A stretch of 58,645 nucleotides of DNA from Lachnospiraceae bacterium (GTDB taxonomy: Bacteria; Bacillota; Clostridia; Lachnospirales; Lachnospiraceae). The stretch lies in assembly GCA_024697065.1 (NCBI GenBank), contig JAILGE010000042.1, positions 1-58,645 of the forward strand, in the 5' to 3' direction. Of this stretch, positions 8,873-49,942 are shown one piece after another (the first letter of the stretch is position 1; each line of letters opens with the position of its first letter). Position numbers and translations under genes: made by a program. Under the pieces are notes generated by a model. It did not search any database and was not told where the DNA came from. It worked only from the letters and a program-made list of their open reading frames with translations.

Positions 8873-8894
8873 AAAGCCTGTTTTGAAAACACAT

Positions 8895-8977
8895 GCCGGC
8901 GTGTCGGAATGGCAGACGAGGCAGACTCAAAATCTGCTGTCAGCAATGGCGTGCGGGTTCAAGTCCCGCCGCCGGCA
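8895..8977 (+). tRNA. tRNA-Leu(CAA)
   Basis: Acceptor GCCGGCG / CGCCGGC, anticodon stem GCAGA / TCTGC with loop CTCAAAA, giving anticodon CAA, plus the long variable arm of class II tRNAs and a GCGGG-TTCAAGT-CCCGC T arm. Discriminator A, no encoded CCA. It marks the left border of the nitrogenase-like island. Confidence 0.95.
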
Positions 8978-8989
8978 TTGAACAAGGGA

Positions 8990-9078: not shown

Positions 9079-9096
9079 TTTGTTATAGCTAACAAA
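9079..9096. promoter_or_regulatory. Palindrome upstream of the island's first gene (candidate operator)
   Basis: TTTGTTA-TAGC-TAACAAA is a perfect 7-bp inverted repeat with a 4-nt centre, the geometry used by many Crp/Fnr-family dimers. It lies 18 nt before the start codon at 9115. The island encodes a Crp/Fnr-family protein, which makes it the natural candidate ligand. Confidence 0.5.
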
Positions 9097-9114
9097 AATA
9101 TGGAGGTTTGGATC

Positions 9115-10041
9115 ATGAATTGCGGATTAGCGGACACTCTGCATTTTACTGCAGAAAATAAAGAGGCAAAATTGCTGGGAAGGGTACCCTGTGTTATCCA
9201 GCTCCCTTTACAGGAGTATTTGGATAAGGAGCTGGGGGACAGAAATATTTACAATATCGCTCTGGCCGAATTTGGAGAGAACTGGCTTTCCGATCTGCTG
9301 GAGAAAAACGATCCGGATGTGATCATAGGCGTAGGGATAGAGGGCATGGTCAACAACGCAGCTCTGAAAAACAAAGGCTATACCTGTGTGAATGGTGATC
9401 TTTTGCAAAACAGGGATTTTATCGATCATGCAGATCCGAAAGGAAATTTTGCCTTGTTTTCCTGCATCCCGCTTGTAATGGTAGCAGACAGATCGCAGGC
9501 AAACGGGAGGAAAATCCCGGAGAAATTTACGGATGTTTTAGCCGAAGAATATACGGACAGTGTGGTATATCCCGATGACGGACATATGCTGGATGGGATA
9601 ATCATGACATACATCCATAAAACAGCGGGTGATGATGGAGTGAAGGCTTTTAAACGAAGTTGTTTTGCCGGAGCACATCCTTCGCAGATGATCAAGCCCG
9701 GCGGCCTGGACAGGAAACCCTTTATCATGCTGATGCCGTGGGTGTTTGCAAAGCTTAAGGCTATGCAGCCGAATATGGAACTTATCTGGCCGGAGGACGG
9801 AGCTCCGATCCTCCCGATAGTAGTGACGGCTAAGGAAAATGATAATGCCCGTGCCATTACGGAAGTTCTGTTCAGAAAGGAAGTGGGGGATATATTTGTT
9901 AAAAACGGGTTCTTCCCGAGTGCTTCCACCGAAACGGATAATAAACTTCCGGGAAAGCTGCAGTTCGTGGGATGGGATTATTTATACAGTGAAAAGCTGC
10001 CGGAAATAATAGCTCATTGTAAAAGTATGATACAGCAGTAA
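9115..10041 (+). CDS. Periplasmic-binding-protein-fold protein without signal peptide (Fe(III)-type, nitrogenase-like island)
   Basis: A 308-residue protein; ATG 9115 follows a TATGGAGG site, whereas the frame opens at 9100. The sequence pattern (two alpha/beta lobes, NPD-type DPDVIIGVGIEGM, a hinge around FALFSCIPLVMVADR, and ICxGAHPSQMIKPGG-like central region) resembles type 2 substrate-binding proteins of the Fe(III) ABC transporter class. There is no signal peptide or lipobox, so it should remain in the cytosol. It is the first gene of a three-gene operon with a HypB/CobW-like GTPase and a soluble ABC ATPase. A cytosolic metal or metal-complex carrier for the nitrogenase-like enzyme is my inference; no ligand can be read from the sequence. 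Confidence 0.6.
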   Translation: MNCGLADTLHFTAENKEAKLLGRVPCVIQLPLQEYLDKELGDRNIYNIALAEFGENWLSDLLEKNDPDVIIGVGIEGMVNNAALKNKGYTCVNGDLLQNRDFIDHADPKGNFALFSCIPLVMVADRSQANGRKIPEKFTDVLAEEYTDSVVYPDDGHMLDGIIMTYIHKTAGDDGVKAFKRSCFAGAHPSQMIKPGGLDRKPFIMLMPWVFAKLKAMQPNMELIWPEDGAPILPIVVTAKENDNARAITEVLFRKEVGDIFVKNGFFPSASTETDNKLPGKLQFVGWDYLYSEKLPEIIAHCKSMIQQ

Positions 10042-10058
10042 GATCCGGAGGGGAAAAA

Positions 10059-10739
10059 ATGAGATTAGTTACATTTGCAGGACCGCCTGCCGGTGGTAAG
10101 ACCACAGTTCTTTGCAAGATAATAAAATGTTTCAAAAATGAAGGTATACCGGTAGGTGCGGTTAAATTTGACTGCCTTCAGACAGAAGATGACAGGATAT
10201 TCGGTGCCATGGGGATACCGTCAAAAAAAGGTCTGTCGGCCGAACTGTGCCCGGATCACTATTTTATCACCAACATCCCCGATGTTTATAACTGGGGACA
10301 GAAAAACGATCTGGAATATCTTTTTACGGAAAGTGCGGGATTGTGTAACCGATGCTCTCCTTACATCAGGAATATACTTTCGATATGCATCATCGATCAG
10401 CTAAGCGGTATTAATTCACCGCAAAAGATAGGACCGCTCCTTAAGCTTGCGGATATGGTACTGATAACCAAGGGAGATATAGTTTCCCAGGCAGAAAGAG
10501 AAGTGTTTTACAGGAGGGTTCAAATGGCAAATCCTCACGGTGAGATCTATTTTGTTAACGGGTTGACCGGACAGGGGATATATGAGATCTGCGAAAGGAT
10601 CAAAGAACTTTCGTCCGAATGTGTTCTTGAGGAGCAGACATTGAGATTTCCGATGCCCATGGCATTGTGTTCTTATTGTCTGGGAGAGACTAAGATCGGA
10701 GAAGAGTATCAGATCGGAAACGTAAAAAAGATAGGATAG
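10059..10739 (+). CDS. HypB/CobW-like P-loop GTPase with two CxxC motifs
   Basis: A 226-residue SIMIBI-class NTPase. Walker A is GPPAGGKTT (8-16), a metallochaperone-like FTESAGLCNRCSPY segment follows, and ITKGDIV occupies the base-recognition (NKxD-like) position. The C-terminal part has CSYCLGETKIGEEYQIGN. The CNRC and CSYC pairs could bind a metal or cluster. Related enzymes (HypB, UreG, CooC, CobW) insert nickel, zinc or cobalt into targets. The ATG follows CCGGAGG. It lies 17 nt after the binding-protein-like gene and 9 nt before the ABC ATPase gene. A role in loading metal for the adjacent nitrogenase-like enzyme is inferred. Confidence 0.72.
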   Translation: MRLVTFAGPPAGGKTTVLCKIIKCFKNEGIPVGAVKFDCLQTEDDRIFGAMGIPSKKGLSAELCPDHYFITNIPDVYNWGQKNDLEYLFTESAGLCNRCSPYIRNILSICIIDQLSGINSPQKIGPLLKLADMVLITKGDIVSQAEREVFYRRVQMANPHGEIYFVNGLTGQGIYEICERIKELSSECVLEEQTLRFPMPMALCSYCLGETKIGEEYQIGNVKKIG

Positions 10740-10748
10740 GAAGTTGTG

Positions 10749-11750
10749 ATGATGAATAAAACGATCAGAGAATTAACGGAACAATATCCATATATAAATA
10801 TTTATCTGGATGATTTTGATATTAACTTTGATGAGAACAGATCTTTTGAAGAGAATCTTAAGCAGCAGCCTGATCATTTTTTTGAACAGCGTAAGATGTC
10901 ATTTAAGGAAGTGCTGGATGAATTTGAGGATTATCTGGATAAAGCAAAAGCTATCCTTGAAGAAAGTATAGAGAATGTAGATGATATCACGATCTATCCG
11001 GGAAAAGGGAAGGATGGGGTTCCCGAACCGTATGAAGAAATAACCGTGCATCCCGGTGAGATCATCGCCATAGTCGGAGAAACCGGAAGCGGGAAGAGCA
11101 GGCTGCTCGAAGATATTGAATGGCAGGCCGAAAAGGACACACCTACAGGCAGAACTGTGATCATCAACGGAATGTCAAAAAAAGAACGGAGAAAAACATC
11201 AGGAAGGCAAAGGCTTATTGCGCAGCTGTCCCAGAATATGAATTTTGTTCTTGATATGAACGTGGATGAATTTCTGAAAATGCATGCCGAATGTTTTGTC
11301 AGTCAGGGAGAAGTTGAAGTACTGGTAAAAAAAGTTTACGAAACTGCCATAAGCCTGTCCGGTGAAGAGTTTTCATTGAATTCATCCATAACAGGTTTAA
11401 GCGGCGGCCAATCCAGAGCCTTGATGATCGCAGACTGTGCTTATATTTCCAGGGCACCAATAGTGCTCATTGATGAGATAGAAAATGCAGGTATCGATAT
11501 ACAAAGAGCCATGAAGATCCTGGTAGGAAGCGAGAAGATCGTATTTATCGCAACCCACGATCCTGTACTGGCTTTGTTTGCCAACAAGCGCATTGTTATC
11601 AGAAATGGTGCTGTCAGCAAGATAATCGAAAGAAATGAAGAGGAAGAGAAGGCTTTGCATGAAGCGGAAAAGCTCTATGGAAGGCTGCTTTATCTCAGGA
11701 ACAGGATAAGATCCGGCGAGAAGATATCACAGTTCGGGGGGATGGCATAG
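10749..11750 (+). CDS. Soluble ABC ATPase with N-terminal helical (DUF1858-like) domain
   Basis: A 333-residue protein with no membrane segment. Residues 1-75 form a helical domain (IRELTEQYPYINIYLDDF...) reminiscent of DUF1858/DUF542-type modules. The ABC domain has Walker A GETGSGKS, Q-loop region, signature LSGGQSRALMIAD, Walker B APIVLIDEIENAG and H-loop IATHD. No permease is encoded next to it, so it probably drives a cytosolic assembly or transfer step. Starts GTG 10746, ATG 10749 and ATG 10752 are all possible; AGGAAG at 10737 suits 10749 or 10752. Its 3' end overlaps the convergent Crp-family gene by 24 nt. Confidence 0.75.
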   Translation: MMNKTIRELTEQYPYINIYLDDFDINFDENRSFEENLKQQPDHFFEQRKMSFKEVLDEFEDYLDKAKAILEESIENVDDITIYPGKGKDGVPEPYEEITVHPGEIIAIVGETGSGKSRLLEDIEWQAEKDTPTGRTVIINGMSKKERRKTSGRQRLIAQLSQNMNFVLDMNVDEFLKMHAECFVSQGEVEVLVKKVYETAISLSGEEFSLNSSITGLSGGQSRALMIADCAYISRAPIVLIDEIENAGIDIQRAMKILVGSEKIVFIATHDPVLALFANKRIVIRNGAVSKIIERNEEEEKALHEAEKLYGRLLYLRNRIRSGEKISQFGGMA

Positions 11751-12398
11751 GGTTACATTATTTCCGTCCATTATGATCATCCCTTCGTCCTGCATACGCC
11801 CAAGCTCACGGCAAACGCTTGAACGTTCTGCACATACGTAGGACGCAAGCTGTTCTCTGTTGAAATTGATCTTAAAGCTGGTACTGTTTGTGCTGGCGGC
11901 GGTTTGGGTGAAAAAAGTCATCAGCTTTTCACGCAGAGTTTTTTGGGTGAGAAGCTGAATTTTTTTATTTAACTGTATGTTGGTGCCTGCCAGTATTCTG
12001 GTTATATTGTTTATGAATTTGATGTGATATGGATTTTTGCCGGGAGACGATAAGATTGAACGAATATCCAGATAAAGGATATCGGTATCGACCGTAGCAA
12101 TAAAATAGGCGAAAGAATTGTGCTGACCCGTTATGGAAAATGCCTGGCCTATCAATTCCCCGGGAAATTCGGATACTACTATTCCTTCACGTCCGACGCT
12201 TGATATCTGGACCACATTGATCTGCCCTGACAATATGATACCCGTGTTTTTTATCGTATCTCCGGGACCGTATATTTCTTCGCCTTTTCGATAACTTCTT
12301 TCGAAATATCCGTATTCATTCAAAAAAGCGCTGATCTCACCGGGAGAGAAATCGCTAAACAGTTCGGATTTTAACAGATTTTGTATGGTCTTACTCAT
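11727..12398 (-). CDS. Crp/Fnr-family transcriptional regulator
   Basis: A 223-residue protein with an N-terminal cyclic-nucleotide-type beta-barrel (about 20-120) and a C-terminal winged helix (FNREQLASYVCAERSSVCREL as recognition region). The N-terminal cysteine cluster of Fnr is absent, so direct [4Fe-4S] oxygen sensing is unlikely; the effector is unknown. It is divergent from the nifH-like gene and convergent with the ABC ATPase gene, so it is the likely local regulator. Its leader is odd: the SD-like GGAAG is separated from the ATG by a GTTGCC-AC-GGCAAC hairpin and a T run. Confidence 0.85.
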   Translation of the reverse strand: MSKTIQNLLKSELFSDFSPGEISAFLNEYGYFERSYRKGEEIYGPGDTIKNTGIILSGQINVVQISSVGREGIVVSEFPGELIGQAFSITGQHNSFAYFIATVDTDILYLDIRSILSSPGKNPYHIKFINNITRILAGTNIQLNKKIQLLTQKTLREKLMTFFTQTAASTNSTSFKINFNREQLASYVCAERSSVCRELGRMQDEGMIIMDGNNVTLCHPPEL

Positions 12399-12411
12399 TT
12401 TACAAAAAAAT

Positions 12412-12425
12412 GTTGCCGTGGCAAC
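12412..12425. promoter_or_regulatory. Palindrome in the crp-family leader (autoregulatory site or attenuator)
   Basis: GTTGCC-GT-GGCAAC, a perfect inverted repeat 14 nt from the regulator's start codon. On the minus strand it is followed by ATTTTTTTG, so it could also act as a short terminator/attenuator in the regulator's own mRNA. Confidence 0.45.
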
Positions 12426-12459
12426 TTCCTTTTTCAGTTTTTTTATATATAGTAGTCAA

Positions 12460-12477
12460 GGTTAGAAACAACTAACC
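12460..12477. promoter_or_regulatory. Inverted repeat GGTTAG-N6-CTAACC upstream of the nifH-like gene
   Basis: Perfect 6-bp arms with a 6-nt centre, the spacing of Crp-type operators. It lies between the divergent regulator and nifH-like genes, 62 nt before the latter's start codon. Confidence 0.5.
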
Positions 12478-12508
12478 CGAATACGATATATCATACATTG
12501 GATTCGGG
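12476..12508 (+). promoter_or_regulatory. Hairpin CCCGAAT / ATTCGGG in the nifH-like leader
   Basis: 7-bp arms with 19-nt loop, overlapping the end of the GGTTAG repeat and ending about 30 nt before the ATG. It may be an mRNA 5' structure or a second protein site; no T run follows. Confidence 0.35.
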
Positions 12509-12538
12509 AATAAAACAAGTGACAAAGGAAATCGATTT

Positions 12539-13300
12539 ATGATCAAGATTGCGGTTTACGGGAAAGGCGGCATCGGTAAGTCAACAACGACATCAAACCT
12601 TGCTGCGGCATTGTCCCGAAAGTACAAAGTGATGCAGATCGGATGTGATCCCAAGGCGGATTCCACCAAGAATCTGATGGGTGGGCGGAGAACATCCACC
12701 GTTCTCGGAACGATCAAAGAAAAGGGTGAAGACATAGAACTGGAGGATATTGTTCATATCGGATATAACGGTGTGCTTTGCGTCGAAGCCGGTGGCCCTA
12801 CACCCGGGATCGGCTGTGCGGGACTGGGGATCATTTCCGCATTTCAAAAGCTTGATGAGCTGGGAGCATTTGAAACCTACAAGCCGGATATAGTTTTATA
12901 TGACGTACTCGGGGATGTGGTATGCGGTGGATTTGCAATGCCCATAAGAGACGGATATGCGGAACATATCTTTATTGTCACATCAGGCGAAATGATGGCG
13001 TTATTTGCCGCAGACAATATAAACAGAGCTGTAAATAACTTTAAAGACAGAGGATATGCGAGAGTACGTGGAATAGTCTTGAATGAAAGACTTGTGGAAA
13101 ATGAGGAACAGTTAGTCTCGAAGTTTGCAAAAGAAAATGATCTGAATGTGATACAGACTATCCACAGAAGCAGGATGGTCCAGTTAGCGGAAGATGACGG
13201 AATGACTGTTGTGGAAAAATTTCCTGATTCAGACATAGCACAGGATTACATCACTCTTGCCGAAAAGATGGTGGAGATCTGTTCTGCGGGGGTGGCGTAA
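12539..13300 (+). CDS. NifH-like ATP-dependent reductase component (nitrogenase-like, not diazotrophic)
   Basis: A 253-residue NifH/BchL/CfbC-family iron protein, expected to be a homodimer bridging one [4Fe-4S] cluster and passing electrons to the component-1 proteins with ATP hydrolysis. Walker A is [10 protein letters not shown] (8-17); switch I/II aspartates lie in [10 protein letters not shown] and VLYDVLGDV. Both cluster cysteines are present, Cys93 (GIGCAGLGI) and Cys129 ([12 protein letters not shown]). In nitrogenase NifH the residue after CAG is Arg100, the ADP-ribosylation site; here it is Leu. The ATG follows AAAGGAAA. The two component-1 genes follow with 0 and 1-nt contacts, so all three are co-translated. 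Absence of nifB/E/N argues against nitrogen fixation. Confidence 0.9.
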
Positions 13301-14542
13301 ATGAAGTTTGAAGGAAACCTTTGTTATTGTTCACCGGCTCACGGCGGGTGGGGAATAATAAGAGTTGCGGCTATGATACCGGAGAGCTATCTGCTTTTTG
13401 TCTGCCCTGCGGCATGCTTCAGACATGGTGCCCTTGGCGCGATACAGCACGGTTATAAGAACAGGATATCTTATCTCTACATAAGTCAGGAAGATATCGT
13501 TGAAGGATATGACGCACTGATCGAAGAAGGGATAGATGAATTATTAAAAAGGACAAAGGAACATATCCGGTTGTTATTTGTATATGTTTCGTGTCTTGAC
13601 GATTTCATAGGTACGGATCTTGATGCAGTGCTTGAAAAAGCAGGAAGGAAATATCCGGAGGTGGTTTTCAGACCCGGACATATGAACCCCATAGCATCGA
13701 GTACTAAGCTGCCTCCTGCTGTTACCACCTTTGATTCCATGCTTGCCGCTTTGCCGGTGCATGAAAAGACGGATGAAAATGTTTCTTTATACGGAAATTT
13801 CGTGGGAATCCCTGAAGACAATGAGCTGATAAAGGTTCTGAATAATGCCGGAAAAAAGGTAAGACAGATCAGCAACTGCGGTTCTTTTGACGAATACCGT
13901 GAAATGTCTTTATCAGAATACGGGATCATCTTAAAGCCTCTTGCGGCGATGGGAGTTTCGAATCTGGAAAAGAAGACCGGAGCGGTACACGTTACTATGT
14001 ACGCGTCTTATGACATCGATACCGTAAAAAATGATTATTCCGGGATCGAAAAGATGCTGGGGATAAGTATCATTCCGGAAATCGGATCTGCGGAGGAAGC
14101 AGCACGCAGTGCGATTGAAAAAGCAAAAGAAGCTGTCGGTGATCTGCCGGTTTATGTATCTGACAGTGCAACCATATTTCCGTGCCGCTTAGCGTTAACT
14201 CTTTTAAGATACGGCTTCAATGTAAAACGGATCTATGCCGTGGATCTGGTCAATCCCGATCAGGATGCGATTAAAGCACTTCAGGAAAACTATCCCGAGG
14301 TGGAAATAATACAGGCGGATCATCCGAAAATGAATATACGTGAAAAAAACGAGAGTTACGCCTTATCCATTGGCGAAGAAGCTGCCTACCTGTCCAACAG
14401 CAGATTCGTTGCCGATATTTCCGCAGATGAAGGGATGCTTGGATTCCAGGGAATAAAGATCCTGATGGATACTCTGGCAGAGTCGGTTAAGGAGAAAGCG
14501 GATATCAGAAAGCTTATTGAAGAGTACGGAGGTATTGTGTGA
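13301..14542 (+). CDS. Nitrogenase component-1-like subunit A (NifD/K/CfbD-like)
   Basis: A 413-residue protein of the nitrogenase component-1 superfamily, shorter than NifD/NifK (about 480-520) and closer to the group IV proteins. Cysteines sit at the P-cluster-like positions: Cys8/Cys10 (LCYCSPAHGGWG), Cys35/Cys39 (CPAACFRHG) and Cys98 (YVSCLDDFIGTD). The C-terminal Rossmann-like part follows. It starts immediately after the nifH-like stop codon. It likely pairs with the next gene product to form a heterotetramer that receives electrons from the NifH-like protein. Substrate unknown; CfbD (nickel-tetrapyrrole cyclization) and MarD/MarK (methylthio-alkane reduction) are characterised relatives. 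Confidence 0.85.
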   Translation: MKFEGNLCYCSPAHGGWGIIRVAAMIPESYLLFVCPAACFRHGALGAIQHGYKNRISYLYISQEDIVEGYDALIEEGIDELLKRTKEHIRLLFVYVSCLDDFIGTDLDAVLEKAGRKYPEVVFRPGHMNPIASSTKLPPAVTTFDSMLAALPVHEKTDENVSLYGNFVGIPEDNELIKVLNNAGKKVRQISNCGSFDEYREMSLSEYGIILKPLAAMGVSNLEKKTGAVHVTMYASYDIDTVKNDYSGIEKMLGISIIPEIGSAEEAARSAIEKAKEAVGDLPVYVSDSATIFPCRLALTLLRYGFNVKRIYAVDLVNPDQDAIKALQENYPEVEIIQADHPKMNIREKNESYALSIGEEAAYLSNSRFVADISADEGMLGFQGIKILMDTLAESVKEKADIRKLIEEYGGIV

Positions 14543-15726
14543 TGAAAAATAAGGTATGCATGTATTTGCCTCCGTTCGCCGGAGATTATTCCGGCGTGGC
14601 TTCTACATTGTTCGATCTGGGCGGGATGATCTGTATCCATGATGCGGCAGGATGCACCGGTAATTATACCCACTTTGACGAACCGAGATGGTATGGAAGC
14701 GAATCCATGGTTTACTGTACCGGACTCAGGAAGATGGAGGCAATCCTCGGAGATGAAGAAAAGTTCATAAACAGGATCATTAACAACGCCATGGAAAAGA
14801 AACCGGAGTTCATCGCTATTGTGGGGAGCCCTGTGCCTAATGTCATAGGTTTTGACTTTAAGGGTGTTGCAAATGCCATCGGGAAAAGAACAAATATCCC
14901 GACTTTCGGATTTGCCACAGCGGGGATAAAGGGCTCATACAAAGACGGGATAGTAATGGCGGCGAGAGAGCTGATGGATCATTACCGCAGATATCCCGCA
15001 GAAGGAACGGTTAATAAAGCAAAAAAACTTGCTGCTGTTCCGGGGATCTCACCACTTGATATGCCTCAGGATATTTATGAAAAGCTTCAAAGGCTGACCA
15101 AAGATTTGGGACTTACCCTTATCCAGAAGAGTGGGGATTACGGAAGCCTTGATTTTTATAAACATCCGGAAAATGTAAATATAAATATTGTACTGAATCA
15201 GGCCGGTTACGAGATCGCAGCATATATGAAAGAAGAATACGGTATTCCGTTTGTCACGGGATTTCCAATAGGCGCAGAGCTCATAAATGAGTATAAGAAG
15301 TGTGTTAACGATGTCCTTGCCGGAAACTGCCGGAGAGATTATATCGAAGAGACAAATGAGGTTTTGGACAGCACATGCAAAGGCCTGGTGATAGCTGACG
15401 GAGTGACGGGAATATCCGTAAGGAAATATCTGCGAAGCCTGGGGGCGGAAGTAAAGGTCGGGGTTATCTCCGGAGACTTCAGAGATACCGTGAATCTAAA
15501 CAATGAGGATCTGATACTTGAAGAGGTAAGTAAGGATTACGATTTTGTTATTGCGGATCCGTTAATACTTGAACTTGTTCCGGATAAGACAGCAAAAATA
15601 AGCCTGCCTCATTATGCTGTTTCAAGCAGAGTGGGCAAGAATGAGAATTGGGATTATCTGGATGAGAAGAACTGGATCGAAAGATTAGGTTCGGTTGTTA
15701 ATAAAGCCGTGAAAAAGCCGGCTTAA
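14542..15726 (+). CDS. Nitrogenase component-1-like subunit B (NifD/K-like)
   Basis: A 394-residue second component-1 protein, distinct from subunit A. ATG 14542 overlaps the previous stop (TGATG) and follows GGAGG; GTG 14539 is an alternative. Cysteines at 6, 31, 38 (HDAAGCTGNYTHF) and 59 (MVYCTGL) are visible, and LGDEEK matches the FGGEKK element of NifD/NifE. At the position of the third P-cluster-type cysteine the sequence is GSPVPNVIG, without Cys. So the pair is asymmetric: subunit A keeps three Cys positions while subunit B keeps two. No FeMo-cofactor Cys/His pair could be recognised. Confidence 0.82.
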   Translation: MKNKVCMYLPPFAGDYSGVASTLFDLGGMICIHDAAGCTGNYTHFDEPRWYGSESMVYCTGLRKMEAILGDEEKFINRIINNAMEKKPEFIAIVGSPVPNVIGFDFKGVANAIGKRTNIPTFGFATAGIKGSYKDGIVMAARELMDHYRRYPAEGTVNKAKKLAAVPGISPLDMPQDIYEKLQRLTKDLGLTLIQKSGDYGSLDFYKHPENVNINIVLNQAGYEIAAYMKEEYGIPFVTGFPIGAELINEYKKCVNDVLAGNCRRDYIEETNEVLDSTCKGLVIADGVTGISVRKYLRSLGAEVKVGVISGDFRDTVNLNNEDLILEEVSKDYDFVIADPLILELVPDKTAKISLPHYAVSSRVGKNENWDYLDEKNWIERLGSVVNKAVKKPA

Positions 15727-15750
15727 ATATATATAGAAAGAGGTAATAAA

Positions 15751-16995
15751 ATGAAGAAAAAATTATGTGCATTGTTAATGACGGCAGCAATGACTGTTTA
15801 CGGTCTGGCTGCCTGCGGAACCGATACGGGAAGCGTAAGTCCTTCAGGCAGTGGTACGTCAGACGGCGATCAGGTTGTTACAACCGAAAGTGTTTCGTCT
15901 GATTCAACTGAGGCTGAAGCCGGCTCACCGGAAGAGACAACGACTGTAACTGAGTATATATATGATGAAAACGATCCTGACGGAACTCACATCGTTATCG
16001 ATCATGCAGGAGATGAAGTTGAAGTACCCAACAGGATCAGCCGTATTGCAATCGGCAGTTTCTATCCCCTTGCTTCCGTTACTGCAGAGTATCTTGGCTC
16101 TGCTGATGCGATCGTAGGTATTCATCCGGTGTCAATGTCTGCTGCAAAGAACGGTCTGCTTGGACAGGTCTACCCGGAGATCCTGGATGCAAATACAGAT
16201 TTTATAGCAGGTTCCGAAGTTAATATCGAAGAGCTTCTTAAGATCGATCCGGATATCGTGATAGGTGTGGGTAAGGAGCAGGCACAGGCTATAAGAGAAG
16301 CGGGTATTCCGGCACTTACAGTCTCTGCTTCCGCCTGGGAATACGATCTGTTTGAAACTTATGATAACTGGGCAGATCTGCTGGATCAGGTTTTCGGTGG
16401 CAGCCCTGTGGCTGAGAAGGTTCAGAAAGACAGTGCTGCAAGCTATGAGTATGTGCAGTCTGTCGTTTCGGAAATCCCCGAAGAAGAGCAGGCAAAAGTG
16501 CTTGTATTATTCCAGTACAGTGATGCGGCAATGGTAGCATCAGGCGTAAATTTCTTCGGACAGAAATGGTGCGATTATGTAAATGCATATAATGTTGCGA
16601 GTGAAGTTGAAAACGGTATCCAGGTTCAGATATCCATGGAGCAGGTTTATGAGTGGGATCCGGATGTTATCATCATAACCAACTTCTGCGGTACTCAGCC
16701 TGAAGATCTCTATAACAATGCCATCGGAAACGATGATTGGAGCACTGTAAGTGCCGTAAAGGAAAAGCGCGTATATAAGATGCCCCTTGGTCTCTACAGA
16801 AGTTACACACCCGGCGGTGATACACCTGTTACAGTGAAGTGGCTTGCACAGACTGTTTATCCCGAACTCTTTGCAGATATGGATATCAGAGAGGAAGCAC
16901 GTAATTACTATAAGGATCTGTTGGGATATGAGTTTTCTGATGAACAGCTTGATATGATGTTTAATCCGTCAAGAAATGCGGCAGACGGACTGTAA
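15751..16995 (+). CDS. Iron/cobalamin-type ABC importer, substrate-binding lipoprotein
   Basis: A 414-residue secreted lipoprotein. The signal peptide ends in lipobox GLAAC (Cys22), followed by a Ser/Thr/Glu-rich tether to about residue 75. The remainder is a FecB/BtuF/FepB-type class III binding protein, with the VPNRISRIAI start of the fold, DPDIVIGVGKEQ and the closing DPDVIIITNF and KRVYKMPLGLY regions. It is expected to capture a siderophore, heme, corrinoid or other metal chelate. The ATG follows AAAGAGG, 24 nt after subunit B, so it belongs to the nitrogenase-like operon. The true ligand cannot be read from sequence. Confidence 0.9.
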   Translation: MKKKLCALLMTAAMTVYGLAACGTDTGSVSPSGSGTSDGDQVVTTESVSSDSTEAEAGSPEETTTVTEYIYDENDPDGTHIVIDHAGDEVEVPNRISRIAIGSFYPLASVTAEYLGSADAIVGIHPVSMSAAKNGLLGQVYPEILDANTDFIAGSEVNIEELLKIDPDIVIGVGKEQAQAIREAGIPALTVSASAWEYDLFETYDNWADLLDQVFGGSPVAEKVQKDSAASYEYVQSVVSEIPEEEQAKVLVLFQYSDAAMVASGVNFFGQKWCDYVNAYNVASEVENGIQVQISMEQVYEWDPDVIIITNFCGTQPEDLYNNAIGNDDWSTVSAVKEKRVYKMPLGLYRSYTPGGDTPVTVKWLAQTVYPELFADMDIREEARNYYKDLLGYEFSDEQLDMMFNPSRNAADGL

Positions 16996-17006
16996 ATGAT
17001 TAAGAT

Positions 17007-17035
17007 GATCGCGGGGATATTTTATCTCCGCGATC
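17007..17035 (+). other. Intercistronic hairpin between binding-protein and permease genes
   Basis: GATCGCGGGGA / TCTCCGCGATC forms an 11-bp stem (one G-U) with a 7-nt loop and no T tract. Such structures commonly stabilise the upstream binding-protein mRNA, so that it is made in excess over permease and ATPase. Confidence 0.6.
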
Positions 17036-17050
17036 TTATGCAGGTGACTT

Positions 17051-18049
17051 GTGAAAAAAAAGACTAATATTTTATGGACAATAGGCATTGTTGCTGTAAT
17101 GATTGTTGCTTTTACCATCGCAGTTACAGCCGGAAGATACTCGATCTCCGTTGAGGATATGATCAAAGTCTTAACGGGACAGGCTGTTGAAGACAGTAAT
17201 GTAAAGACAGTTATGTTCAGCATACGTTTGCCGAGAGCTCTTCTTGCGATCATAGCCGGTGCAGGCCTTGCAGTTGCGGGAGCTGCGTTTCAGAGCATGT
17301 TTTCAAATCCGCTTGCCACACCGGATACTCTGGGCGTTGCGACCGGCGCATCCTTTGGCGCCACACTTGGTATCATGATGAGGCTTCCGTCCATGGGGAT
17401 CCAGACTTCGGCATTCTTGATGGGCATCATTTCAATTTTCCTGGTTTATTCCATCAGTAAGGTTAAAGGAGAATCATCACTGGTAATGCTGATCTTAGCC
17501 GGAATGGTGATCAGTTCGTTATTTGAAGCATTGGTTTCGTTGGTAAAGTATGTTGCGGATCCGCAGGATGTTTTGCCGGAGATCACTTATTGGCTGATGG
17601 GGTCTCTGTCGGGGACCGGATTTGACGATCTGCTTGTCGGAGTGATCCCAATGCTGGCAGGCATATTCATAATTCTGGGATTGAGATGGAAATTAAATGT
17701 TTTATCACTTAATGAGGATGAAGCCAGATCAATGGGTATAAACCTCAGATTTATAAGAGGGCTGACCATTGTTTCATCGACAATGATCACTGCATCGGTG
17801 ATCGCGATGTGCGGAAAGGTTGGATGGATAGGCATACTTATTCCTCATGTTGCCAGGATGATATTCGGAAATAATAACAAATATGTTATACCGGCGTCAC
17901 TGGGGCTTGGAGCAACGTACTTATTGATAATAGATACCGTTGCCAGAAGTATTTCCGCGGCGGAACTGCCTATTTCTATCCTTACAGCGATAATAGGCGC
18001 ACCGGTATTCATTATTTTACTCAGAAAGACTGGAGGGATAAAAGCATGA
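17051..18049 (+). CDS. FecCD-type ABC importer permease
   Basis: A 332-residue integral membrane protein with about nine to ten helices, of the FecCD/BtuC family. Recognisable family elements are SIRLPRALLAIIAGAGLAVAGA, FQSMFSNPLATPDTLG, and GKVGWIGILIPHVARMI near the coupling helix. The start is GTG 17051 with AGGTG upstream. Its stop overlaps the ATPase start by 4 nt (ATGA). Only one permease gene is present, so it should form a homodimer. Confidence 0.93.
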   Translation: MKKKTNILWTIGIVAVMIVAFTIAVTAGRYSISVEDMIKVLTGQAVEDSNVKTVMFSIRLPRALLAIIAGAGLAVAGAAFQSMFSNPLATPDTLGVATGASFGATLGIMMRLPSMGIQTSAFLMGIISIFLVYSISKVKGESSLVMLILAGMVISSLFEALVSLVKYVADPQDVLPEITYWLMGSLSGTGFDDLLVGVIPMLAGIFIILGLRWKLNVLSLNEDEARSMGINLRFIRGLTIVSSTMITASVIAMCGKVGWIGILIPHVARMIFGNNNKYVIPASLGLGATYLLIIDTVARSISAAELPISILTAIIGAPVFIILLRKTGGIKA

Positions 18050-18903
18050 CGTTTGAAGTTAGAAATGCATCATTTGGATATAAAGGCGGGAAAATGATAC
18101 TTAGCAACATTTCCTTTTCCGTTGAAAAGGGAGAGATCCTCTCCATACTTGGATCAAATGGTGTGGGAAAGACGACTCTTTTAAGATGCACGCTTGGATT
18201 TCAACCATGGAAGAAAGGTGCAACGTATATTGACGGTATGGAGTGGGCGAAATGGAAGAATCAGGAGATCTGGAAAAAGATCGGATATGTTCCCCAGGCC
18301 AAACGTTCTGCTTTTTCATATACTGCCGAAGAGATGGTTCTGCTTGGAAGAAATGCACATTTGGGGCTTCTGTCGCAGCCGTCCAAAGAAGATATGAAGC
18401 TGGCGGAAAAGTGTCTTGAGATGGTAGGGATGGAACGCCTGAAGGGAAAGCTTTGTAATGAGATCTCAGGCGGAGAATTACAGATGGTTCTGATCGCCAG
18501 AGCTCTGGCTACTGATCCTGAAATGCTGATCCTTGATGAGCCTGAATCCAACCTTGATTTTAAGAATCAGCTGATAGTTATAAATACGATAAGGGATATC
18601 TGTGAAAGAGAAGGTATATCATCGATCATCAATACTCATTATCCCGAACATGCCATAGCGATCTCGGAAAAGGCGCTTGTTCTTAACCGGGATGGCAGTA
18701 ATGTTTTTGGAGATGCAAAAGCCGTGATCACGGAGAAAAATCTCAGAAAAGCATTTGATGTGGATGTAAGGATCCGTTCGTTTGAAGCAGACGGTAAAAT
18801 GCATACCTGTGTATTACCGATTGGTATCATAAACAACTTGGAGCCTGAAGTGGTTGACGGGATATTTCCCAAACAGGATGCGCTGATCCACGGAGTGGCA
18901 TGA
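18046..18903 (+). CDS. FecE/BtuD-type ABC importer ATPase
   Basis: A 285-residue ABC ATPase: Walker A GSNGVGKTT, signature ISGGELQMVLIARAL, Walker B LILDEPESNLD and H-loop histidine in INTHYPEHA. It is about 30 residues longer than typical FecE, with a C-terminal extension after the RIRSF segment. Start ATG overlaps the permease stop (ATGA). Last gene of the nitrogenase-like operon; the duplicated terminator hairpin follows 40 nt later. Confidence 0.93.
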   Translation: MTFEVRNASFGYKGGKMILSNISFSVEKGEILSILGSNGVGKTTLLRCTLGFQPWKKGATYIDGMEWAKWKNQEIWKKIGYVPQAKRSAFSYTAEEMVLLGRNAHLGLLSQPSKEDMKLAEKCLEMVGMERLKGKLCNEISGGELQMVLIARALATDPEMLILDEPESNLDFKNQLIVINTIRDICEREGISSIINTHYPEHAIAISEKALVLNRDGSNVFGDAKAVITEKNLRKAFDVDVRIRSFEADGKMHTCVLPIGIINNLEPEVVDGIFPKQDALIHGVA

Positions 18904-18942
18904 CCGGGATTCCGGGTTGATGCGATAAAGGAATTGTACAGA

Positions 18943-18978
18943 CCGTGAATACGTTTGTGAGAACGTGTTCACGGTTTT
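18943..18978 (+). terminator. Intrinsic terminator at the right end of the island (second copy of the hairpin)
   Basis: CCGTGAATACGTT / AACGTGTTCACGG stem with T-rich tail. It is nearly the same as the hairpin at 8990-9028, so the island lies between two copies of one ~40-bp element in direct orientation. Confidence 0.85.
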
Positions 18979-45361: not shown

Positions 45362-48300
45362 TTATCCTACCTGAGTTTCTTTGGTTAACTTCTTATGATT
45401 CTTTCTGAGCTTCTCGAAGATCAGGTAGAAAGTAGGGATGAGGAGCAGTGTAAGTATTGTGGATGCCAGCAGTCCGCCGACGATAACTACTGCCATACCC
45501 TGCATACTCTCGGAGTTCTTTGCAAGCTTAAATGCTACCGGGAGCATGGCAAGCTCTGTAGTGAGAGTGGTGATCAGGATAGGACGGAGACGATCCTTAC
45601 CTGCAAGTATAAGTGCACTTCTTATATCCACACCTTCTGCGCGGATCTGATCCGTAGTATCAATGTAGATGATACCGTTATTAACTACTATACCGGCAAG
45701 CATCAATACACCAAGCAACGCTGTCATGGAAAGCTTAACATTCATCACAAAGAGCATCAGCACCGATCCGATGGCCGCAAAGGGGATGCAGAGCATGATG
45801 AGGAGTGCACTGGGGATGGATTCAAACTGTATTGCCATGACCATGAATACCAGGTAAAGTGCTATGAGAATAGCCTGGCCGATAGCACCGAATTCTTCAT
45901 CACGGATCTCGTCACCCATATTAGTGATATAGTTTACACCTTCACCAAGATCGAGTTCCTTCATCTTGGGTTCAAGTTCTGCCAGAATCTCATTTTGAGT
46001 ATCTGCTGTCATGATAGCTTCAACCGTTGCGGAGAAGCGGCCGTCGGTACGAACGATGGTCTGGGATCCCATTTCCAGACGGATATCGGCTATCTCGGTG
46101 ATAGGAACGGTACGTCCTTTTGGACTCGTAAAAGTCATGGATTCCACATCTTCAAGACTGTTATAGTAATCCTTAGGATTTTCAACCTTGATATCGTAAG
46201 TCTTACCACCAAGGGTTACTTCACCTGCATCGGAGCCGTTTAAGTTCTGGTAGACCATCTGCGATACCTGAAGAGCAGTGAAACCGTTAGCCTGGGCTTT
46301 ATCGGGATCCACATCAACCATGATCCTGGTACCTGTTCCATCAAGTGTGGATGTAACATTCAGAATACCGGCAGTATTCTCGAGTACTTCTTTGATACGG
46401 TTACTTGCTTCGATAAGAGAATCCATATCATCCGCAGCGATATCGTAGGATTTGGAAGCACCGGTCGAAATGGAAGCTGACATAGTCGTAGAACCTTCGC
46501 TTACTTTGATCTCGCAGTTATCGGAGAATCCGTTCAGGGCTTCGTTCCATTCGTCAACGATCCTGCTTGTTGCCATTTTAAGATCGTCTTTTTTATATGC
46601 TGTTATGGTTGCTGTAGCAGAGGATTCAGTAATGGAGACACTGCATTCATCTGTATATCCGCTGTCAGTAACGAACTGCTCCAGATCACGGACGGTGTTG
46701 TCCATATTTTCCAGCTTGGTATTGGGACGGAAGGTCACATCGATATTAACGATTCCTTCATCAGCCTGAGCGATCAGCTCGGTAGGCATACCGGATGCTA
46801 TAAAGATTGACAATCCGAAGAGTACAACTGCGATAAGTGTTGCAAGCTTCTTGTAACTGAGTACTCTGTCAAGCAGGCGGCCGTAACGCTCCGCAATACC
46901 GTCGATCAGGATGGTAACAGGGTTGTTGATACGCTCCTTGGGCTTGTAGAGAGCAAAGAAGAAGGGCACAAAGGTAATGGCAGAGATAAGGGATGCCAGA
47001 AGTACGAATACTATGGTAAGTCCCATCTGCTTAAACATCTGTCCGGAAAGACCGTTCAGAGCAACCAGGGGAAGGTAAACGACTACGGTTGTTATGGTCG
47101 AACCGATGACAGATCCCATAACTGTCTTAGCGCCGGTATATGCAGCTGACTTAAAATCTTCTCCTGCTTCCTGTCGTTTAAAGCACATCTCTATTACCAC
47201 GACAGCATTATCGGTGATCATACCTATCGATAAGACCAGACCGTTCATGGATACGACATTGAGGGAGATTCCCGCAAAGTACATACATACCAGAGCAAAG
47301 AGTAATGATATCGGCATGGTGATACCGACGATAAGTGAGCCCTTAAGGTCTCCGAAGAATACGAAGATAACTGCCATTGCAATAGCGACTCCGACAAGCA
47401 ATGTCTTTGCTACGGAGATAAGAGTGTCTATGATCTCATCGGCGCTGTCATAGACCGTCTCGATGTGGATATTGGGATTCTCTTCGTTGAATTCTTTAAT
47501 GAGCTTCTTAACCTGTGTAGAGAGAGCAACGGAGTTTGATGACTGCTTTCTCTTTAATCCCAGTGTAATAGCGCTGTTTCCGTTATATCGGGAAATTTCC
47601 GTCTGATCGGATGTACCAAACTGAACATCAGCGACATCTCCGAGATGGATCACGTTTCCGCGTGAGGTCTGGATTGGGATCTCACGGATTTTTTCCAGAT
47701 CGTTAAAGTGAGTTGCACTTTCCATATTCAGCATTTGGTTGCCGTATTCAATATTTCCTGCAGGCATTGAAAAGTTAACGCCTGATATCGCTGCAACCAG
47801 GGCAGATTGTGATACCCCGTACTGCTGGGCATATTCGGGAATGATACGTACAGCTATATATCTTTCGTCACCACCGGTGATGGATACATCAGCCAGTGCA
47901 TTGGCATGACGGAGCTTCGGTTCCAGCTTATCCTCGATTATATTTAAGAGATCGGAGTCTTCTACATCTGTAGTAACGGCAAGCTGCATATCGTCAAATG
48001 CTTCGAAGTCCATTTCCATGATTACGGGATTTCCGGCTTTTTCAGGTAACTGATCCTGTACCAGATCGATCTTCGCGCGGATATCATCATGTGCCTCATC
48101 AAGATCAGTACCGTAGTTGAACTGGAATATGATAACGCCGTAATTCTCATAAGAATTCATTATAGTCTTTTTAAGACCGGAAACGGTGGAACAGCTCTCT
48201 CTGATCTTCTCTGTGACATTTTCATCCACCTCTTCGGGGGAAGCCCCGGGGTAGGTAGTCATTACGACCATCATCGGTATATTGATATCCGGCATGAGTT

Positions 48301-48406
48301 TAAGTGACATGCCGCGGATCGAAACAATACCGAACACTACCAGTGCGAGCAATGTAACTATAACTGTGACAGGCCTGTTGATAGCGGCCTTTGTAATCTT
48401 GTGCAT
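45362..48406 (-). CDS. RND-family efflux pump permease (HAE1/AcrB-like)
   Basis: A 1014-residue proton-driven transporter with the duplicated 6-helix plus large extracytoplasmic-loop architecture of AcrB. RPVTVIVTLLALVVFGIVSI at the start, GLVLSIGMITDNAVVVIEM (helix 4 with the Asp of the proton relay) and MLAGIVVNNGIIYID (helix 10) are clear. It is downstream of the adaptor in a MarR-adaptor-pump operon. No outer-membrane channel gene is present, as expected for a monoderm. Substrates unknown; drugs or lipids possible. Confidence 0.95.
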   Translation of the reverse strand: MHKITKAAINRPVTVIVTLLALVVFGIVSIRGMSLKLMPDINIPMMVVMTTYPGASPEEVDENVTEKIRESCSTVSGLKKTIMNSYENYGVIIFQFNYGTDLDEAHDDIRAKIDLVQDQLPEKAGNPVIMEMDFEAFDDMQLAVTTDVEDSDLLNIIEDKLEPKLRHANALADVSITGGDERYIAVRIIPEYAQQYGVSQSALVAAISGVNFSMPAGNIEYGNQMLNMESATHFNDLEKIREIPIQTSRGNVIHLGDVADVQFGTSDQTEISRYNGNSAITLGLKRKQSSNSVALSTQVKKLIKEFNEENPNIHIETVYDSADEIIDTLISVAKTLLVGVAIAMAVIFVFFGDLKGSLIVGITMPISLLFALVCMYFAGISLNVVSMNGLVLSIGMITDNAVVVIEMCFKRQEAGEDFKSAAYTGAKTVMGSVIGSTITTVVVYLPLVALNGLSGQMFKQMGLTIVFVLLASLISAITFVPFFFALYKPKERINNPVTILIDGIAERYGRLLDRVLSYKKLATLIAVVLFGLSIFIASGMPTELIAQADEGIVNIDVTFRPNTKLENMDNTVRDLEQFVTDSGYTDECSVSITESSATATITAYKKDDLKMATSRIVDEWNEALNGFSDNCEIKVSEGSTTMSASISTGASKSYDIAADDMDSLIEASNRIKEVLENTAGILNVTSTLDGTGTRIMVDVDPDKAQANGFTALQVSQMVYQNLNGSDAGEVTLGGKTYDIKVENPKDYYNSLEDVESMTFTSPKGRTVPITEIADIRLEMGSQTIVRTDGRFSATVEAIMTADTQNEILAELEPKMKELDLGEGVNYITNMGDEIRDEEFGAIGQAILIALYLVFMVMAIQFESIPSALLIMLCIPFAAIGSVLMLFVMNVKLSMTALLGVLMLAGIVVNNGIIYIDTTDQIRAEGVDIRSALILAGKDRLRPILITTLTTELAMLPVAFKLAKNSESMQGMAVVIVGGLLASTILTLLLIPTFYLIFEKLRKNHKKLTKETQVG

Positions 48407-48427
48407 AGTATATATCCTCTTGATCTG

Positions 48428-49942
48428 TTATTTTTCTGCTTCAACTGCGGTTCCGTCCTTAAGACCTGAGCTCCAGGTGACAATGATGGGATCTTCCGCA
48501 ACCACGCCTTCAGTGATCTCAACACGTCCGTCCTCTTCAAGACCTGTTGTGACATAGCGGATACGTGCGGAATCACCCTCAAGGACATACAGATAGGGCT
48601 GTTCACCTTCGTAATAAATGCAGTCTGAGGGAACTGTCAGTGCGTTAACCGACTGTCTAGAGACAGTGCGGAGTGAAACCGATGATCCGCCGGCTAAGGG
48701 CGCATCTCCCTGAATAAGGGCTTCAACCTTGTAGAGGCCCTGGGCCTGATCTATTACGGAAGAAACGGATACGATGCTTCCGGTATAGTTTTCACCGTTC
48801 TGTTCTACAGTAACTGAATTTCCTACTGTCATCTCACGCATTGTTCGCTCTGCAACATAGAACACTACCTTGCAGTCTTCATCTGTTTCGATGACATAAG
48901 CCGCCTGAGTGGGAGCAGCCATGTTGTGTTCTGTGATATTTTTGGAAATGATCGTGCCGGTAACAGGACTTGAAACACTATAGTAGGTAAGAGCGAGCTG
49001 GGCATTTGCCAGACCTGCACTGGCCTGACCTACGGATGCACGGCTTGCTTCAACCTGAGCACCTGATGCTTCAAGTGTAGCCTGTGAAGCGGCTAACTGT
49101 TCGGCAGAGATTACACGCTGTTCTTCCGTAGCCAATACCTGAGACTGGATGGAAGCGGAGGTTAACTGTTTTGTGAAGTTCAAATAATCCTGCTGCTGAC
49201 GTATTGCTAGATCATAAGCGGCCTCAGCAACTGCTACTGACTCAGCTGAGCTGTCAGATGAGTTTCTTGCTGAGAAAAGCTGCATCTCCAGCTGGTCGAT
49301 AGTGTCCTTGGGAGCTTCTTTATCAACAGCACGGTTTAAGAGTGACTCGGTCGTGTGATAATTTTCCATAGCTGTTCCTGCAGCAAGCTTGGCCTGGGTT
49401 AACTGAGCTTCAGCTCTGTCCACTGCAACCTGTAACTGGTATTCTGTGGTAGCCATCTTGTTGGCATTATCTGCGGCTGTGAGCATCTGTACATCAGCAT
49501 TTGCAGTCTGTATGTTGTAATTTGCCTGCTGTATCGCATATGCGGCTTCCTGACCGCTGTAGGCACACTGGGCAGCGGAAAGTCCGGCATTGGCAGCATT
49601 CAATGCAGCCTGCGCCTGTTGTTGGGCTATCTGAGCGGATGTGTCATCAAGAGTAAAGAGCAGGTCACCTTCTGAAACGTGATCGCCGACTTCAAATTCA
49701 GTACTGAGAACTTCAGCGCTTACCCGGGGAAGAATGGTGATGGTACTTCCGGCTTCAACAGTACCGATATATCTGGATTCGACTGAAATGGTCTGGGACT
49801 GAGGGGTTTCGGTACGCACTTTAAGGATCTGTTCCTCTTCAGTTGCTGCAGTGTCCTCTGTTTTGCTGCCACAGGCACTTGTGAGCAGCATTGTTGCTGC
49901 AATTCCGATACCGAGAAATCTTTTTAAAACTTTTGTTTTCAT
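48428..49942 (-). CDS. RND efflux adaptor (HlyD/AcrA-type) lipoprotein
   Basis: A 504-residue membrane-fusion protein. The signal peptide ends with lipobox LTSAC followed by GSKTED. A split lipoyl-type domain (EVGDHVSEGDLLFTLDDT ... YYSVSSPVTGTIISKNI) encloses a long Ala/Gln-rich coiled coil (about 100-310). The C-terminal beta domains end with IIVTWSSGLKDGTAVEAEK. ATG overlaps the MarR stop by 4 nt; the pump gene follows after 21 nt. Confidence 0.93.
   Translation of the reverse strand: MKTKVLKRFLGIGIAATMLLTSACGSKTEDTAATEEEQILKVRTETPQSQTISVESRYIGTVEAGSTITILPRVSAEVLSTEFEVGDHVSEGDLLFTLDDTSAQIAQQQAQAALNAANAGLSAAQCAYSGQEAAYAIQQANYNIQTANADVQMLTAADNANKMATTEYQLQVAVDRAEAQLTQAKLAAGTAMENYHTTESLLNRAVDKEAPKDTIDQLEMQLFSARNSSDSSAESVAVAEAAYDLAIRQQQDYLNFTKQLTSASIQSQVLATEEQRVISAEQLAASQATLEASGAQVEASRASVGQASAGLANAQLALTYYSVSSPVTGTIISKNITEHNMAAPTQAAYVIETDEDCKVVFYVAERTMREMTVGNSVTVEQNGENYTGSIVSVSSVIDQAQGLYKVEALIQGDAPLAGGSSVSLRTVSRQSVNALTVPSDCIYYEGEQPYLYVLEGDSARIRYVTTGLEEDGRVEITEGVVAEDPIIVTWSSGLKDGTAVEAEK

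Follow-up and report, generated by a model that had tools for sequence, protein, structure and literature searches.

A nitrogenase-like reductase encoded beside a FecBCE importer in a Lachnospiraceae genome and in several bacterial phyla

What might a nitrogenase-like reductase act on if its genes are followed by those of an importer? The question is raised by contig JAILGE010000042.1 of the Lachnospiraceae bacterium assembly GCA_024697065.1, positions 1–58,645 of which were analyzed and are referred to below as the window. Six genes, designated nflH, nflA, nflB, fecB, fecC, and fecE, form a string (12539–18903) encoding a NifH-like reductase, two component-1 subunits, and a FecBCE-type ATP-binding cassette (ABC) importer. 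The original prediction, made from the window alone, had seen these genes, three upstream genes for cytosolic proteins (the trio), and a Crp-like gene as one island for the reduction of an unknown substrate. This interpretation is partly supported by the present analysis. The reductase and the importer are usual partners, to which the trio and the Crp-like gene are added in only some loci. Tentatively, and with somewhat less than even confidence, we propose that the system of the window is an importer-coupled, ATP-driven [4Fe-4S] reductase of a small metal complex.

The NflHAB proteins and their family

The best-scoring NCBIfam models for NflH were those of CfbC and NifH, neither of which reached its cut-off (329 bits for a cut-off of 402 and 327.4 bits for a cut-off of 394.35, respectively). 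The two cysteines that the original prediction assigned to the [4Fe-4S] cluster of NflH, C93 and C129, were retained in all 46 aligned homologues. No named-family NCBIfam model reached its cut-off with NflA or NflB, those for NifD/K and Bch proteins included; the CfbD model gave 18.6 bits with NflB, against a cut-off of 268.4, and no match with NflA at an E-value of 0.01. The structural model of NflA, with a predicted local distance difference test (pLDDT) score of 90.8, has the nitrogenase component-1 fold and is about equally near to AnfK, MarD, NifN, and BchN. Profile matches of NflB were to NifE, NifD, and DPOR-B chains.

A component-1 tree of 57 rows was computed by a quick method from A and B subunits of the family and from CfbD, NifDKEN, BchNBYZ, and Mar-like references, a set that did not comprise CfbC or IsrHDK. 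Our trees exclude component-1 open reading frames (ORFs) longer than 560 residues as well as incomplete sets and short fragments. The 19 A subunits formed one clade and the 19 B subunits another, each with a Shimodaira–Hasegawa-like approximate likelihood ratio test (SH-aLRT) value of 100 and on stems of 1.56 and 1.41, respectively. Both clades were separate from CfbD, BchNBYZ, Mar-like, and NifDKEN proteins, the exact positions of CfbD and the Bch proteins being unsure because of their long branches. The original prediction was therefore right in recognizing two distinct component-1 subunits and in assigning the system neither to CfbCD nor to MarHDK. The complete two-component reductase encoded by nflHAB belongs to a distinct, widespread, and uncharacterized nitrogenase-like family.

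Cysteines C39 and C98 of NflA were retained in 51 of 51 aligned rows, and C39 of NflB in 52 of 53, the remaining row having a gap. In a superfamily alignment of Nif, Mar, Bch, and Cfb proteins, these three residues occupy the only cysteine positions kept by the window subunits (alpha88, alpha154, and beta95 for NflA C39, NflA C98, and NflB C39, respectively). The ligand residue is absent at alpha62, alpha275, alpha442, beta70, and beta153. The Cys275 column contains K in NflA, N in NflB, and Cys in none of the 19 A or 19 B rows; the His442 column contains S in both window subunits. Ligand equivalents of FeMoco and the L-cluster are missing from NflAB in this alignment, and of the P-cluster cysteines no equivalents other than these three are kept. 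A conserved cysteine of NflA, C193, was considered as a FeMoco-type Cys275 and rejected, since the alignment places it elsewhere and the true column holds K or N. The pattern predicts that NflAB, like DPOR and CfbD, has a single bridging [4Fe-4S] cluster and an open cleft.

Sets of this kind have been seen before. According to the accessible text of Dos Santos et al. (2012; PMC3464626), nitrogenase-like NifHEN sequences occur beside ABC transporters, with two cysteines in the D/E-like subunit and one in the K/N-like subunit, as in the window. The matching cysteine pattern is reported there for homologues in Methanocorpusculum, Desulfitobacterium, Coprococcus catus, and Dorea longicatena, the C. 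catus set lying beside hydrogenase-maturation genes. Roles in metallocluster assembly were suggested and the function was given as unknown. The original prediction was correct in calling the substrate unknown, yet the association with transporters had already been described in 2012. Unlike the present analysis, that article, in its accessible part, defines neither a FecBCE-cassette family nor a relation to HydG. A search of open-access literature by title or abstract start, which left most subscription papers and preprints outside its scope, gave no function for the family and no tie to HydG loss.

Among characterized systems, CfbCD resembles NflHAB in its NifH-like reductase and in the two cysteine positions that CfbD shares with NflA, but CfbD is a homodimer encoded by a single gene (PMC11423573, accessible part), whereas the window encodes two distinct subunits and an importer. 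DPOR and COR (BchLNB and BchXYZ) are likewise ATP-driven two-component reductases with a heteromeric catalytic part; they differ in ligand pattern and fall in separate clades, and the annotated genes of the window locus include none for tetrapyrroles. MarHDK and IsrHDK have the same H-D-K gene layout, but both systems include a B gene for a radical-SAM protein (PMC12552129 and PMC11423573, accessible parts), which is missing among the ORFs of the window locus, and Mar has the P-cluster and [Fe8S9C] ligands that the window subunits lack.

The FecBCE importer and the neighboring genes

Named genomes were scanned for relatives of the locus. At least 577 stretches encode one, and the best 80 were kept, 79 of which have the B ORF on the matched strand; neighbors were counted within 8 kb. 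Among these 79 related loci, nflH and nflA homologues were present in 73, fecB, fecC, and fecE together in 62, and any fec gene in 74; two or more fecB genes were found in 17. FecBCE is thus the usual partner of the reductase, as expected from the original description of an own importer. The kept loci come from hosts such as Lachnospiraceae, Ruminococcus flavefaciens, Treponema, Christensenella, Romboutsia, Tissierella, Synergistota, and a methanogen, and within these best 80 of at least 577 stretches the reductase-importer cassette occurs in Bacillota, Spirochaetota, Synergistota, and other phyla. Chance arrangement is excluded because the same gene order recurs in many genera. In a plasmid collection, relatives of subunit B were found in one record, from Treponema saccharophilum. 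The nearest named relatives of the window by subunit B (best segment) were Lachnospiraceae bacterium XPB1003 (72% identity) and a metagenome-assembled genome (MAG) of Pseudobutyrivibrio ruminis (66%), indicating that the host genome (2.69 Mb in 44 contigs) is of the Lachnospiraceae type.

FecB is 37–92% identical to 41 relatives and is conserved like the enzyme (mean column identity of 42%, versus 40% for subunit B and 39% for subunit A). The model of FecB residues 82–414 had a pLDDT score of 95.5, and its nearest structure was 4ovk from Veillonella parvula, with a template modeling (TM) score of 0.85. HI_1472 (MolA; 0.77), CeuE (0.74), and YiuA (0.74) followed, ahead of HmuT, BhuT, and BtuF (0.60–0.65), and sequence profiles ranked the proteins in the same order. 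MolA, CeuE, and YiuA, which share the fold of FecB and are its closest characterized solved structures at only 19–22% identity, bind molybdate, nickel, and a ferric siderophore, respectively; to our knowledge, none of the three has a nitrogenase-like partner. The cut-offs of the BtuCDF models were not reached (BtuF, 17.8 of 234 bits; BtuC, 191 of 334 and 198 of 461 bits). A riboswitch was considered and rejected for the window and for seven related loci (L036–L042), where no match exceeded the Rfam threshold; the search did not extend to L043, L048, L049, or the named loci. Judged from the structure and profile order, a small metal complex is the likelier ligand of FecB than heme or a corrinoid, by a modest margin. 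Of the two imports that the original prediction had entertained, a metal chelate or a corrinoid, the former kind is thus favored and the latter disfavored.

All ten genes of the original prediction were found in their places with the support of a Pfam family (Table 1). They form two strings and a divergent regulator gene rather than one compact locus, the Crp-like gene being antisense to the trio (9100–11750) and overlapping the tail of its ABC ATPase gene by 24 nucleotides. The predicted spacing of zero to 24 nucleotides did not hold for nflA/nflB and fecC/fecE, which overlap by 4 nucleotides each, or for fecB and fecC, which are 55 nucleotides apart. A tRNA-Leu (caa) gene at 8894–8978 ends about 120 bp upstream of the first trio gene; tRNA genes are common insertion points for islands. 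Elsewhere in the window, positions 45362–49942 encode an AcrB-family RND exporter and an HlyD-type adaptor.

Table 1. Genes of the nfl locus and its flank in the window.
Feature	Coordinates	Strand	Evidence and remarks
Trio gene 1, SBP_bac_6-like protein	9100–10041	+	Pfam SBP_bac_6, 7.1e-40; signal peptide not visible by eye
Trio gene 2, CobW/HypB/UreG-like GTPase	10059–10739	+	Pfam cobW, 1.8e-7
Trio gene 3, soluble ABC-type ATPase	10746–11750	+	Pfam ABC_tran, 3.1e-14
Crp/Fnr-family regulator, divergent from nflH	11727–12398	−	Pfam cNMP_binding and HTH_Crp_2
nflH, NifH-like ATP-dependent reductase (253 residues)	12539–13300	+	Pfam Fer4_NifH, 3e-91; cluster cysteines C93 and C129
nflA, component-1 subunit A	13301–14542	+	Pfam Oxidored_nitro, 2.2e-18; C39 (alpha88-equivalent), C98 (alpha154-equivalent)
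nflB, component-1 subunit B	14539–15726	+	Pfam Oxidored_nitro, 1.5e-23; C39 (beta95-equivalent)
fecB, substrate-binding protein	15751–16995	+	Pfam Peripla_BP_2, 2.8e-18; lipobox-like start by eye
fecC, FecCD/BtuC-type permease	17051–18049	+	Pfam FecCD, 3.5e-86
fecE, importer ATPase	18046–18903	+	Pfam ABC_tran, 5e-30

Only 12 of the 79 related loci contain the trio or two of its genes. The trio was therefore rejected as an integral part of the reductase system, and neither the conserved trio neighborhood nor the own metal-handling module of the original prediction was borne out. Of 291 genomes from the class, 15 had a match to the trio GTPase, at 49–61% identity except for two at 38%. Among 18 trio stretches from elsewhere (L199–L216, 5–17 kb), 17 lack the reductase and one has it; two contain a prismane-family (Hcp-type) gene, and three contain Fec-type genes and a methyltransferase-cluster gene (two of these three checked with Pfam). 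A distant member of the SBP-like family, the one that was scanned, carries an N-terminal DUF1858 domain. The trio forms a conserved three-gene system in its own right, which in some lineages is located next to the reductase genes.

The Crp-like gene, present in 20 of the 79 related loci, is likewise an optional neighbor. A looser site scan found no common Fnr or Crp site. Fur-box-like sites (at least 11 of 14 positions) were found upstream of 11 of 73 nflH genes, versus 30 of 623 other genes, and universal Fur control of nflH was rejected. Some relatives have metal-related neighbors, namely FeoB, Fur-family, and P-type ATPase genes (L041/L152, one contig) and a heavy-metal P-type ATPase gene (L123).

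Sister sets, hydrogenase genes, and HydG

In a host-family sample of 299 genomes, subunit B had a match at an E-value of at most 0.001 in 86, and the family was called only for the 39 genomes with a match below 1e-30. Forty stretches were fetched, one being a Mar-like locus of the window genome itself and 39 being family loci from 38 other genomes. At least two Fec clusters were present in 17 of these 39 loci, and all three in 15 of the 17. In 16 loci (L045, L051, L054, L055, L057–L059, L061, L063, L065–L069, L071, and L073), HypF, HypD, and HypE are encoded beside the reductase, with HypC in 5 and a TM1266-type regulator gene in 10; this regulator belongs, by its Pfam name, to [FeFe]-hydrogenase systems. 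Two reductase sets are present in 14 of the 16 Hyp-type loci, counting one fragment that lies at the end of a contig. All 16 come from host-family genomes that have HydE and HydF but not HydG. In the host-family tree, clade I comprises the sets adjoining hypF, whereas clade II unites the second sets with the FecBCE sets of HydE/HydF genomes; sets of the window type make up group III. The 11 members of the window group are a grade, ten rows clustering at an SH-aLRT value of 84 and L049 being added by its Fec context, and the window itself lies outside clade II. The A subunits of clade II nest among those of group III; for the B subunits, the order is left unresolved by the tree. Clade II FecB proteins are 49–52% identical to that of the window, above most FecB proteins of the window group. 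Pocket residues A42, A100, and A101 differ between the groups (H, D, and mostly D versus G, H, and mostly H).

All 299 genomes were also searched for HydE, HydF, HydG, and HydA. Among the 155 genomes with HydE and HydF, HydG was absent from 24 of the 28 with the family and from 4 of the 127 without it (Fisher test, 4e-20, genomes being treated as independent). Only HydG matches that exceeded the cut-off were counted, the fragment of G047, a genome outside this table, being scored as absent, and the HydE set omits four matches of 1e-41 to 1e-56 (G009, G050, G079, and G165). By type, HydG was missing from 18 of 18 HypD-bearing genomes, 5 of 6 with clade II and Fec genes, and 1 of 3 of group III. 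HypD occurs in 20 of the 39 family-bearing genomes, these 18 and two (G000 and G004) with a [NiFe] operon, compared with 0 of 10 hand-picked HydG-bearing controls. The four family-free genomes with HydE and HydF that also lack HydG (G011, 86% complete; G128, 69% complete; G142; and G181), of which only G011 has HypD, indicate that other routes or assembly gaps exist.

The association was also examined along a HydF tree that covered 76 of the 160 genomes with HydF, including 45 hand-picked HydG-bearing, family-free controls. HydG absence was scattered over this tree (17 changes); the clade II/Hyp form required 16 changes. A lineage-corrected pair test was not significant (only four independent pairs on well-supported branches, of which on average 2.7 pointed in the expected direction, 1.3 showed no difference, and none opposed it; p = 0.25). 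Three family-bearing genomes, G245, G262, and G285, are of neither type; for this test, G245 was assumed to belong with clade II, and G262 was counted as without, as was the window group. Among 40 named genomes outside the sample, HydG exceeded its cut-off in 17, comprising 3 of the 6 with clade II (five placed by the tree and L150 by its neighbors) and 14 of the 34 others. Strict HydG-freeness of clade II was accordingly not upheld, the three HydG-bearing members being Intestinibacter bartlettii, a Clostridium MAG, and a Blautia MAG; HydF was found in 5 of the 6. As an observation apart, five genomes (G039, G096, G022, G042, and G116; L087–L091) encode a HydA with the L1, L2, and L3 H-cluster motifs by the patterns used, and in these HydE, HydF, HydG, and the nitrogenase-like family all fell below the thresholds used.

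If the [FeFe]-hydrogenases of the 18 HypD-bearing genomes work, a source of CO and CN other than HydG has to be assumed. Such a source is chemically plausible since activation of HydA by HydE and HydF without HydG proceeds at about 1% and is doubled by added CO or CN, as cited in the accessible part of PMC9431212. The sister sets thus suggest a HydG-independent route to the H-cluster.

The window genome itself differs. HydE, HydF, and HydG were all below cut-off. One HydA-like protein is encoded, with the L2 motif missing by the pattern used, and a group-4-like [NiFe] operon is accompanied by HypD, HypE-like, and HypB-like genes (Pfam); similar reading frames indicate such a [NiFe] operon with HypD in the congener G004 (loci L080 and L081 for the two genomes). 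About 6.5 kb from the HydA-like gene (L035:1754–3292), contig C20 carries the Mar-like set mentioned above (L035:9820–14819), with NifE/MarD-like, BchB/MarK-like, NifB-like, and NifH genes. The original prediction that no marB-like gene is present therefore holds for the locus itself, not for the whole genome, which has a NifB-like gene on this other contig.

Candidate functions of the window system

In the favored scheme, FecB would capture a small metal complex, such as an oxyanion, a metal chelate, or a siderophore-type compound, and FecCE would import it. The NflH dimer, with its [4Fe-4S] cluster and ATP, would hand low-potential electrons to NflAB, in which three conserved cysteines, two from A and one from B, would hold one [4Fe-4S] cluster. 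The imported complex would then be reduced in the open cleft, and its metal may be freed for release or for cofactor assembly. The scheme is favored by the recurrence of the cassette, the separate clades of both component-1 subunits, the cysteine pattern, the ligands of the nearest characterized relatives of FecB, the conservation of FecB, the metal-related neighbors of some relatives, and the Fur-box-like sites upstream of some nflH genes. Several observations weigh against it. Seventeen of the 79 related loci lack a complete FecBCE set (several lie at contig ends), L117 has no part of it despite full flanks, and L115 has a different gene immediately downstream; the importer is thus no strict requirement. 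Nor is linkage proof that what the importer binds is what the enzyme reduces. FecB shares only 21% identity with MolA, no ligand is stated for its nearest structure, 4ovk, and no Fur-like box was found upstream of the window nflH.

The same linkage would be expected if the importer supplied metal to the reductase or to the trio only, NflAB reducing another, cytosolic substrate. Metal transport coupled to cofactor assembly was proposed for such loci in the accessible part of PMC3464626, and the trio GTPase is of a metallochaperone family. The ligand pattern, however, is that of an ordinary [4Fe-4S] cluster, which needs no special imported metal, and the scarcity of the trio at related loci also renders this explanation somewhat improbable. 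Reduction of an imported heme, corrinoid, or chlorophyll product, in the manner of DPOR, COR, or CfbCD, is unlikely. DPOR and CfbCD are [Fe4S4]-only enzymes with tetrapyrrole sites and the same kind of cluster (PMC12552129, accessible part), corrinoid and heme systems are found among FecBCE-type importers, and CfbC is among the models that NflH matches best. FecB is nevertheless nearer to binders of small metal complexes than to BtuF or heme binders, no riboswitch exceeded the threshold in the window or the seven related loci, and the A and B subunits do not group with Bch proteins or CfbD, long branches notwithstanding.

A part in assembly of the hydrogenase active site, that is, of iron with CO and CN ligands, would extend to the window what the sister sets suggest. 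The HydG contrast between family-bearing and family-free genomes, the nesting of clade II within the window type (A subunit only), and the similarity of the FecB proteins speak for it. Against it, HydE, HydF, and HydG all fall below cut-off in the window genome, whose HydA-like protein lacks L2 and whose HypD, HypE-like, and HypB-like genes accompany a [NiFe] operon, and the pocket residues differ; on these grounds we do not ascribe a role in hydrogenase maturation to the window system. Furthermore, 8 of the 11 window-group genomes have none of the three maturases, and HydG is present in 14 of the 34 outside genomes without clade II. This role is accordingly quite unlikely, and direct replacement of HydG by the window enzyme was rejected, since HydG is absent from one and present in two of the group members with HydE and HydF (Fisher test, p = 0.11) and the window genome has none of the three. 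Reduction of carbon-sulfur bonds, as by MarHDK or IsrHDK, has the shared H-D-K layout in its favor and is highly improbable, since no radical-SAM gene occurs among the ORFs of 9079–18978, the P-cluster and active-site ligands are missing, the genome encodes a Mar-like system elsewhere, along with a NifB-like gene, and the clades are separate (Isr lying outside the tree).

A broader possibility, which we consider rather unlikely, would unite the groups: the family may handle iron-carbonyl/cyanide or low-valent iron, the window form importing an iron complex and converting it to a reactive iron synthon, and the derived clade II, fed by import or by HypCDEF and the clade I reductase, replacing HydG by supplying an Fe/CO/CN unit to HydE and HydF. 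If true, clade II would provide a HydG-independent route to the H-cluster of [FeFe]-hydrogenases. The pattern of the sister sets suggests a gap in hydrogenase biology that can be tested. Most group IV nitrogenase-like enzymes are still without a substrate, and the fixed importer of this family offers a direct handle on one, because the ligand of FecB can be fished out and identified.

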